Position numbers and translations under genes: made by a program. Shown here piece by piece: positions 22,834 through 34,559 of a DNA stretch of 34,559 nt; the stretch's first letter is position 1, and every line of letters starts with the position of its first letter. Under the pieces are notes generated by a model. It was not told the origin of the DNA. It was given only the letters and a program-made list of their open reading frames with translations, and searched no databases. The stretch comes from Bacillota bacterium (lineage in GTDB: Bacteria; Bacillota; SHA-98; UBA4971), in contig JAAYXB010000031.1 of assembly GCA_012516125.1 (NCBI GenBank), positions 1 through 34,559 on the forward strand, read 5' to 3'.

Positions 22834-23718
22834 TTGAGAGTTACGCTCGGACATGCGCGCGTGCTTGTGGTTGTGGCTCTTGTCGCCGCGGTTTTTGTGT
22901 GTACATGCCCCGCCATGGCGGGCGCCCCCTCTCGCGCGCTGAAGAAGGGCATGAGAGGGGATGACGTCGTCCGGCTGCAGCAAGGCCTCGCGAACCTCGG
23001 GCTCTACATCGGTGAGTGCGACGGCCTGTTCGGCGACTGCACGCTGCAGGCGGTGGAGGCTTTCCAGCGACAGCATGGGCTCCGGGTGGACGGGGTGGTG
23101 GGCGCGTCCACGTGGGAGCGCCTGGAGGCGGAGCTTGCGAAGGGGCGCACGAAGACATACATTGTCTCGCCGGGTGATAGCTTGTGGGCCATAGCCCGGA
23201 AGTTCGGCGTCGGCGTCCAGGATATCGTGCGGGCGAACGACATCCGTGACCCGTCCTCGATCAGGGCAGGGCAAGAACTTCGGATTCCGGGTGCGGGCGA
23301 CGTTCCGTCGAGGGGCGGGCGTGGTCCCGTTGAGGTTCTACATTGGGACAAGGTGAAGACTCTCTTCAGAGCCTATGCCACCGTGGTCGATGTCCGCACT
23401 GGCCTCTCGTTTCGCGTGAGGCGGCGGGGCGGCCACTTCCACGCTGACGCTGAGCCTGCCGGCACCGAGGACACAGCGATCATGAAGAGGATCTACGGGG
23501 GCAGGTGGAGCTGGGAACGCCGTCCCATCGTGCTGGAGGTGGCGGGAAGGCGAATCGCGGCCTCCATGAACGGGATGCCCCACGGCGGCGAGTCCGTGCG
23601 GGGCAATGGTTTCCCGGGGCACTTTTGCATTCACTTTGCCGGCAGCAGACTCCACGGTTCCGGCGAGATAGACCGCGAGCACCAGGCGTGTGTGCGGGAG
23701 GCAGCCGCAAGCGAGTGA
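22834..23718 (+). CDS. Exported peptidoglycan-binding protein (PG_binding_1 plus LysM)
   Basis: 294 aa from TTG 22834, with ggaggcgaggg just upstream. Signal peptide about residues 1-29 (VLVVVALVAAVFVCTCPAMAGA). A PG_binding_1 repeat follows (about 36-88: LKKGMRGDDVVRLQQGLANLG, DGLFGDCTLQAVEAFQRQHGL), then a LysM domain (about 107-152: TYIVSPGDSLWAIARKFGV to GQELRIP). The C-terminal 130 residues (LSFRVRRRGGHFHADAEP, RRIAASMNGMPHG, NGFPGHFCIHFAGSRLHGSG) form a conserved domain seen in spore-forming Firmicutes, with several His residues but no assigned activity. It occupies the place of ylbM in the B. subtilis order. Spore cortex or wall location is inferred. Confidence 0.9.
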   Translation: MRVTLGHARVLVVVALVAAVFVCTCPAMAGAPSRALKKGMRGDDVVRLQQGLANLGLYIGECDGLFGDCTLQAVEAFQRQHGLRVDGVVGASTWERLEAELAKGRTKTYIVSPGDSLWAIARKFGVGVQDIVRANDIRDPSSIRAGQELRIPGAGDVPSRGGRGPVEVLHWDKVKTLFRAYATVVDVRTGLSFRVRRRGGHFHADAEPAGTEDTAIMKRIYGGRWSWERRPIVLEVAGRRIAASMNGMPHGGESVRGNGFPGHFCIHFAGSRLHGSGEIDREHQACVREAAASE

Positions 23719-33444: not shown

Positions 33445-33473
33445 GAAGGATCTTCTAGCAGGACGTTGAATAT
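33445..33473 (+). promoter_or_regulatory. Sigma-H-type promoter of spoVS
   Basis: -35 GAAGGATCT (33445-33453) against RNAGGAWWW with one mismatch; 11-bp gap; -10 GTTGAATAT (33465-33473), a full match to RNNGAATWW. B. subtilis spoVS is sigma-H dependent, in agreement. Confidence 0.75.
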
Positions 33474-33525
33474 ACATATGGCAAGAAGCGCATGGTCCAA
33501 AACCTGGGAATGGGAGGTAGAAGGC

Positions 33526-33786
33526 GTGGAGGTACTAAAGGTATCAGCGCAATCAAAGCCCAAGTCGGTGGCAGGCGCCCTTGCCGCGGTGCTCAGGGAG
33601 AGAGGGTCCGCGGAGGTTCAGGCGGTCGGGGCAGGAGCTGTTAACCAGGCTGTCAAGGCAATTGCTATCACGCGAGGATTTGTTGCGCCCAATGGGATCG
33701 ACCTTGTGACCATCCCAGCTTTCGCCGAGATCCAGATCGACGGGGAGGAGAGGACTGCGATAAAGTTCATCGTAGAGCCCAGGTGA
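33526..33786 (+). CDS. spoVS: Stage V sporulation protein S
   Basis: 86 aa from GTG 33526 behind gggaggtag, exactly the family's usual length. MEVLKVSAQSKPKSVAGALA to ERTAIKFIVEPR is a near-consensus SpoVS (Alba-like fold). Loss in B. subtilis blocks spore coat and septation steps; Alba-like surfaces suggest nucleic acid binding. Preceded by a sigma-H-type promoter and followed by a strong terminator, so it is a single-gene unit. The phased palindrome array starts 335 bp downstream. Confidence 0.97.
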   Translation: MEVLKVSAQSKPKSVAGALAAVLRERGSAEVQAVGAGAVNQAVKAIAITRGFVAPNGIDLVTIPAFAEIQIDGEERTAIKFIVEPR

Positions 33787-33855: not shown

Positions 33856-33900
33856 CAGCCCGCGGTCGCGGCCAGGCCGCAAGCGCGGGCTGTTTCTTTT
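33856..33900 (+). terminator. Intrinsic terminator of spoVS
   Basis: Outer stem cagcccgcg (33856-33864) with cgcgggctg (33884-33892), inner stem gcggc-cag-gccgc region (33868-33880), followed by TTTCTTTT (33893-33900). Confidence 0.9.
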
Positions 33901-34049
33901 GCCACCGCTTGGCGGCCGAGAGGGCCGCGTGCGGCCCGTCCATGGTTCAACGCTGAGCTTGGCCATGGGTCATATACATGTGCGAGCATGTACGAGACCC
34001 AGGCTGCCTCGGGGTTCATCGCGCGGCAGCCCTCTCTGCACCAACCTTC

Positions 34050-34097
34050 GACCCTTGATTCTTGACCCTTGATTGAAGATCGATGATCGATGATCGA
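34050..34097. repeat. Two short tandem repeats bordering the palindrome array
   Basis: gacccttgatt occurs at 34050-34060 and 34064-34074 (14-bp period). gatcgat then repeats almost three times at 34078-34097 (7-bp period). Between 33901 and 34049 no gene is seen, only hairpins such as tacatg-tgcgag-catgta (around 33973-33991). Confidence 0.7.
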
Positions 34098-34121
34098 GGC
34101 GTGGCTGCGCTCGCGCCCGGG

Positions 34122-34551
34122 TGGTCCCTGGGTGGTCCCTGGGATCTCAGGATCTCCTGCGCGGGTGGTCCCTGCGGGACCAACCCCATGCGAAATCTGG
34201 TTACCAGGGATCCACCCTCCTCGCGGTTCAGCCGGCGGAAGGCCGGAACTGGTCCCCTGGTGACCAGGACCCACGCGTAGATGGTCCCCAGGGAGCCAGG
34301 TTCGAGCGTCACCTGGTCCCCAGGTAACCACCTTCGTAGATGCCCATGGGTGGCTGGTCCCCAAAGGACCAGGATGTGCGGGCAGGTGGTCCCTGGGGGA
34401 ACAACCCTGTTCGAAATATGGCTACCAAAGACCCAGCCTCCTCGCGCCTCACCCGGCGAGAAGCCAACGCTGATCCTTTGGTGACCAGGTTGCACGTGGA
34501 GATGATCCCTGCGTGATCAACTTCGTCCGCCACCTGGTCCTCGCGTAACCA
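34122..34551. repeat. Helically phased array of twelve 17-bp imperfect palindromes
   Basis: 17-mers of the form TGGTCCC-n3-GNNACCA begin at 34133, 34166, 34198, 34250, 34282, 34314, 34355, 34387, 34419, 34471, 34503 and 34535. Examples: TGGTCCCTGCGGGACCA (34166), TGGTCCCCAGGTAACCA (34314), TGGTCCCCAAAGGACCA (34355), TGATCCCTGCGTGATCA (34503). A partial extra copy starts at 34122. Start-to-start distances are 33, 32, 52, 32, 32, 41, 32, 32, 52, 32 and 32 bp. The set of six repeats with a 221-bp period. Neither 32 nor 221 is a multiple of three, and no reading frame explains the pattern. The array runs to the window edge and probably continues. Confidence 0.9.
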
Positions 34552-34559
34552 TTCTCCCC

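Follow-up and report, generated by a model that had tools for sequence, protein, structure and literature searches.

A helically phased array of inverted repeats at the core of a dispersed mobile element in the Ca. Fermentithermobacillia, and its probable role as a protein-docking platform

The array behind spoVS

The window, that is, the whole 34,559-nucleotide stretch analysed here, is contig C13 of the source genome (G000), a 3.24-Mb assembly in 98 contigs. Towards its right-hand end lies a gene that we take, by its family, to be spoVS; sigH and smc, discussed below, are named on the same assumption. Directly after spoVS is an inverted repeat (33856-33892) whose 18-nt arms enclose a 1-nt loop; it is probably a transcription terminator, and right behind it an element has been inserted that carries an array of dyads (Table 1). 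Elsewhere in the window, a 22-bp tandem repeat in two copies (23293-23335) lies in a reading frame of peptidoglycan-binding/LysM-like type.

The array was first noticed in the sequence as twelve imperfect 17-bp inverted repeats, and all twelve were found again when re-measured. Their start-to-start spacings are 33, 32, 52, 32, 32, 41, 32, 32, 52, 32 and 32 bp, so the values of 32, 41 and 52 bp reported in the earlier note hold for all but the first. All eight arm bases (TGGT/ACCA) are present in five dyads, at least seven in nine and at least six in nearly all. At these spacings the longest chain of dyads is 12 in the array, 2 in the remaining 34.1 kb of the window and 3 in 2000 dinucleotide shuffles of the 419-bp array. 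The sequence TGGTNNCNNNGNNACCA occurs three times in the window, always within the array, against an expectation of 0.04. Six dyads form a 221-bp higher-order unit that is present about twice. At 10.5 bp per turn, 32, 41, 52 and 221 bp correspond to 3.05, 3.90, 4.95 and 21.05 turns, and the proposed helical phasing is borne out by the phase coherence of dyad pairs, which in 17 arrays of the window-array family is highest at 10.5 bp (0.91). The window array is incomplete, as position 34559 is the end of the contig.

Table 1. Positions of the array and neighbouring features in the window
Feature	Position	Strand	Basis
spoVS gene (upstream of the insertion; context, outside the element)	33466..33786	+	ORF; spoVS-sigH-smc order kept in relatives
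Element leader without its initial 40 bp or so, left TIR included	33900..34132	+	leader alignment across unrelated loci
Lone half-site TGGTCCC, 11 bp ahead of the first dyad	34122..34128	+	sequence, repeats
Phased dyad array (initial 12 dyads; the contig end cuts off the rest)	34133..34551	+	
Triad 1 (dyads 34133, 34166, 34198)	34133..34214	+	
Triad 2 (dyads 34250, 34282, 34314; 52 bp from the last dyad of triad 1)	34250..34330	+	
Triad 3 (dyads 34355, 34387, 34419; 41 bp from the last dyad of triad 2)	34355..34435	+	
Triad 4 (dyads 34471, 34503, 34535; 52 bp from the last dyad of triad 3)	34471..34551	+	
Two partial copies of the 221-bp unit (34161-34330, 34382-34551), 73% alike	34161..34551	+	repeats, spacing grammar

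The right end and trailer of the window element are found on contig C36, ahead of sigH. About 40 bp of the left end seen in related elements are missing from the window copy, and C13:33900-33969 aligns with element positions 41-110 of a copy in a close relative (G004:C75). Both G000 and G004 carry the element between spoVS and sigH. In four sister species (G001, G002, G003 and G005) no element is present, and just a short spacer separates spoVS from sigH and smc downstream. This absence from between conserved genes means that a special role at this locus fails, and a regulator or origin specific to spoVS/sigH was rejected on these grounds. The earlier note had made a binding role depend on such a comparison of relatives with conserved flanking genes; what falls is a locus-specific operator or origin, whereas the platform itself recurs across the genome and the class. 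No gene neighbour common to the inspected array loci was seen. Their flanks are mixed (DUF401, aldo-keto reductase, RecD2-like helicase, beta-CASP nuclease, Uma2, NAD synthase, GntR and others), which led us to discard a binder encoded by a common neighbour gene.

Copies, carrier element and distribution

A blast search of the window array region against its own genome gave 68 matches. When dyads were chained in the fetched loci, G000 was found to hold about 30 arrays or array fragments with about 500 dyads in sum, many of the arrays being cut by contig ends; the assemblies are drafts with breaks in repeats, and some arrays may be chimeric. The common complete array has 21 dyads in seven triads, with spacings of 33 32|52|32 32|41|32 32|52|32 32|41|32 32|41|33 32|52|32 32, and some arrays are longer, up to a maximum of 29 dyads. 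Complete arrays thus hold at least 21 dyads, in triads. The spacing grammar, in which dyads follow at three, three and then four or five turns, is fixed among independent copies. When spacing is left unconstrained in the main family, consecutive dyads are only 31-34, 40-41 or 52 bp apart (316 intervals of up to 60 bp). Two exclusions made at the outset also stand. The arrays are not coding repeats, as none of 18 is overlapped by a coding-like ORF, and they are not CRISPRs, in which near-identical repeats are separated by unique spacers, as the units here are variable dyads, the spacing alternates between 32, 41 and 52 bp, and the spacers are shared among copies (mean identity 0.787).

In the window genus the array is packed in a non-coding element of about 1.6 kb between terminal inverted repeats (TIRs), TATAGATAGCCAAC.../...GTTGGGCATCTATA. 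Leaders at unrelated sites align from a common end, TATAGATAGCCAACTCAGGAGTTG, and trailers terminate in CAAGTTTGAGGTTGGGCATCTATA, an imperfect inverse of the leader end. Flanks beyond these ends differ between copies, the TIRs being common to copies at many unrelated flanks, as in miniature inverted-repeat elements (MITEs), and a search of G000 found near-exact TIR matches in the genome itself. A precise empty site is seen in G005, which lacks about 1.6 kb relative to the G004:C75 copy (GACC-TG-GATGC in G005, GACC-TATAAATAGCC...GGGCATCTACA-GATGC in G004). This single site is compatible with a TA target that changed later, and is not proof of one. Common ends beside unrelated flanks, the empty site and the absence from spoVS-sigH in four sister species indicate mobility, and the carrier of the array in the window genus is therefore a dispersed, TIR-bounded mobile element, which goes beyond what the single copy in the window could show. 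At about 1.6 kb the G004:C75 copy exceeds the limit of about 0.6 kb used for a MITE. No transposase gene was seen inside the elements, and the genome-wide transposase search covered PF01797. The whole element had no blastn match in phage or plasmid collections, the one viral hit consisting of two dyads and no array, and a phage or plasmid origin was rejected. At the end of one element (L033, G000:C12:530-578) the right TIR (TATAGATAGCCAA...) is present in three tandem copies.

When 84,980 species genomes were scanned for pairs of TGGTC-N7-GACCA dyads exactly 32 bp apart, real arrays came only from the window genus and from MAGs of Ca. Fermentithermobacillaceae. Aquifex, Arthrobacter, Bacteroides and a deltaproteobacterium gave hits of two or three dyads each, which are not such arrays. 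In the class Ca. Fermentithermobacillia, a TGGT-N9-ACCA pair at 32-41 bp occurs once or more in 11 of 17 genomes, and a reversed-motif control in the same 17 genomes gave none. All five positives in a sample of 249 Bacillota genomes lie within the class, with 0 of 240 outside it. G002, G005 and four other class members gave no strict match, so the array is not essential to its host. The TGGT-N9-ACCA arms and the spacing at three, four or five turns recur in further genera of the class and also in another of its families, so that a search of the genome and its relatives, proposed when the array was first described, recovered both the arrays in G000 and the same arms and spacing in further lineages. 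Inner bases differ by lineage: they are CCCCAGGGG-like in the window species and YGAnnnTCR in genus g2, other cores occur (L103, L116), and in G013, from another family of the class, the dyads read TGGTAA...TTACCA. Between most array lineages blastn finds no array similarity.

The TIR vehicle is not general. In the arrays of genus g2 no TIR was seen, a dyad forming the end of the repeated unit, and the C15-type array of G000 shares with its relative in JASEJE01, which matching array sequences suggest to be G001, the array and not the flanks. The array therefore either predates the vehicle or is independent of it. The C15-type belongs to a divergent TGGTCGC-type subfamily with the same spacing grammar, found at G000:C15:42569 (L090:5570-6303) and L128:3454-4082. 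In TGGTCGC-type arrays of two species homology is limited to the array (81%) and the flanks are unrelated, so the array seems to move without a TIR vehicle. In one g2 array (L142, G011) the leader before the first dyad carries tandem 14-bp repeats, CTGTAAGCCTCATG.

Constraint on arms, spacing and phase

The geometry of the array is genuine, extends through the whole family and is under constraint. The phase coherence of the dyads gives a best helical period of 10.5-10.6 bp in each of the five sequence lineages. Among paralogous arrays identity is 0.936 in the arms, 0.857 in the inner bases and 0.787 in the spacers. With the same aligner, and at similar divergence in the same elements, the ratio of gaps to mismatches is 0.068 in arrays, 0.208 in leaders and 0.249 in trailers. 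At orthologous insertions in G000 and G004, 5.2% of positions differ in the arms, 12.0% in the inner bases, 19.1% in the spacers and 7.1% in the flanks.

The array spacers thus diverge 2.7 times as much as the flanking DNA at these sites, as in concerted evolution. Array windows are mostly nearer to another array of the same genome than to their ortholog, in a comparison that sets the best of 22 paralogs against a single ortholog. Paralogs that predate the divergence of the two species would not be expected to come out nearer so regularly, and this suggests gene conversion between arrays, or else assembly chimeras.

What the dyads may serve

We consider it rather likely that a dispersed non-coding mobile element has the array as its core and that the dyads are docking sites for a dimeric, oligomerising protein. 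Each dyad would be bound by one dimer of a protein present across the class, and dimers on one face of the helix would oligomerise, with the triad, which repeats every 105 or 116 bp or so, as the basic unit. The assembly may wrap DNA in the manner of Lrp/AsnC proteins, and an array of 0.75-1 kb would become one compact nucleoprotein body, which might serve the element (copying, immunity, host tolerance) or the host (local silencing, nucleoid structure). Our preference is for an element to which an architectural protein of the host is recruited. The dimeric-protein platform put forward in the earlier note is supported by the 10.5-10.6-bp period, the conservation of the arms, the scarcity of indels and the strand symmetry of mismatches described below; cooperativity is something that we infer. 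The occurrence of the same arms and spacing in lineages without a detectable sequence match also counts for a platform. Against it, selection could act on the transposition of source copies instead of on function at each site, and gene conversion between arrays also spreads a single sequence.

A stronger form of this reading is possible, albeit doubtful. A class-specific chromosomal protein would bind TGGT-N9-ACCA and build nucleosome-like bodies on phased triads at tens of dispersed sites; the sites would evolve in concert by gene conversion, with a lineage-specific inner sequence and fixed arms and spacing, and a transposon lineage would have captured them. If this were true, the arrays would constitute a bacterial chromosome-organising satellite system.

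The dyads may instead be sites for the element's own transposase or another mobility factor, phased for transposition or copy control, with the copies otherwise inert. The many copies agree with this, as does the enclosure of the array by a TIR element for which an empty site was found, and selection on source copies alone would preserve arms and spacing everywhere. We regard it as unlikely, however, as the g2 arrays are dispersed without visible TIRs, the C15-type shares only its array with the JASEJE01 relative and the elements contain no visible transposase gene. At least 20 internal sites are also, to our knowledge, far beyond the needs of known bacterial transposase ends.

Every dyad could fold as a hairpin of about 7 bp, and the arrays might on this account be a transcribed structured RNA or a string of hairpins. 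In 437 dyads oriented with the array, G.T mismatches (245) are not in excess over A.C mismatches (284), and pairing between the arms equals the expectation from column shuffles, with no covariation beyond column composition. An Rfam search gave no match, and spacing by integral turns of B-DNA would be unexpected for RNA. The strand-symmetric mismatches and the pairing at shuffle level argue that selection acts on DNA rather than RNA; RNA hairpins were accordingly rejected and we hold a structured RNA to be very improbable. The half-sites are conserved independently of each other, as protein contacts would predict.

We give equally little credence to a neutral satellite, in which a 32/41/52-bp unit would have been duplicated in tandem and then spread and homogenised by gene conversion with no protein binding. 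Such a history agrees with the 221-bp higher-order repeat and with the frequent closeness of array windows to paralogs in the same genome. The possibility of a satellite free of selection on its dyads had been raised as a threat to a binding role, and it is contradicted by arms that are conserved over spacers and by indels that are depressed only within the array; arms and spacing are, moreover, shared by sequence-unrelated lineages. Palindromes of the REP/BIME type moved by a RAYT (Y1) transposase, which would likewise be dispersed, intergenic and clustered, are scarcely credible, and dependence on a RAYT was rejected, given the TIR ends, the strict helical phasing and the lack of any PF01797 (Y1 transposase) match in the array-richest genomes, G000 and G004, this family being found in 4 of the 17 class genomes only.

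Lrp/AsnC dimers bind 13-17-bp palindromes on one face of the helix, two or three turns apart (PMC2995911), BarR sites can be three turns apart (PMC10201364), and in Ss-LrpB complexes about 100 bp are wrapped round three interacting dimers (PMC2995911). The arrays resemble these systems in their 17-bp dyads at 32 bp (3.05 turns), their 41- and 52-bp linkers and their 10.5-bp period, and the triad repeat of 105 or 116 bp is close to the Ss-LrpB figure. Lrp/AsnC operators, in contrast, have few sites at one promoter, where here each array has at least 20 sites and the arrays or fragments number about 30. The Lrp family is the closest mechanical parallel that we found, and membership is not claimed. 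RemA of Bacillus is an oligomeric ring that wraps repetitive upstream DNA (PMC8481266). It may offer a second parallel for the wrapping of repetitive DNA in Bacillota, but the repeats of its binding regions, which lie upstream of promoters, are described as poorly conserved, unlike the arrays here. We know of no dyad grammar for RemA sites.

In centromere-like and multi-operator arrays (parS/parC, phage operators) several dyads are phased for cooperative binding, usually at one or a few loci beside the gene of the binding protein. The arrays described here differ in their many dispersed copies and in the lack of a common neighbour gene in the inspected loci, and the number of copies, about 30, speaks against a single partition site. 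Among mobile repeats, RUP is a pneumococcal MITE whose movement, at TA targets, is attributed to an IS630 transposase (PMC2229807). The present element is similarly non-coding, dispersed, intergenic and TIR-ended, and may likewise use a TA target, but RUP is about 107 bp long, whereas the element is about 1.6 kb, has a phased array as cargo and no known parent insertion sequence, and its arrays also occur without TIRs. REP/REPIN elements depend on RAYTs (PMC3116915); REP/BIME and REPIN sequences are likewise extragenic imperfect palindromes, clustered and in many copies, and they differ from the arrays, which have fixed helical spacing and no hairpin covariation signal and are most abundant in genomes without a RAYT.

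Open-licence papers gave no account of such arrays in our literature searches, in keeping with the first impression that the type was unfamiliar. What is new is the type of phased dyad array; the non-coding mobile repeat that carries it is of a known kind. Dispersed bacterial repeats are usually short hairpins. This family has at least 20 phased, protein-sized dyads per copy and a spacing rule that outlasts nearly all sequence across a class. It makes a hidden, abundant and perhaps DNA-wrapping protein directly findable by pull-down, and it is a natural test case for how helical phasing and gene conversion shape satellite-like DNA in bacteria.

A second dispersed repeat of about 110-200 bp, with hairpin-like arms (AAAATCCGGCC...GGCCGGATTTTGACACCCC), was noted in about 40 copies in G000. 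Examples are C36:448-559 and C32:35135-35245, and it is also present at L128:4176-4322; some copies are nested in or adjoin array elements.
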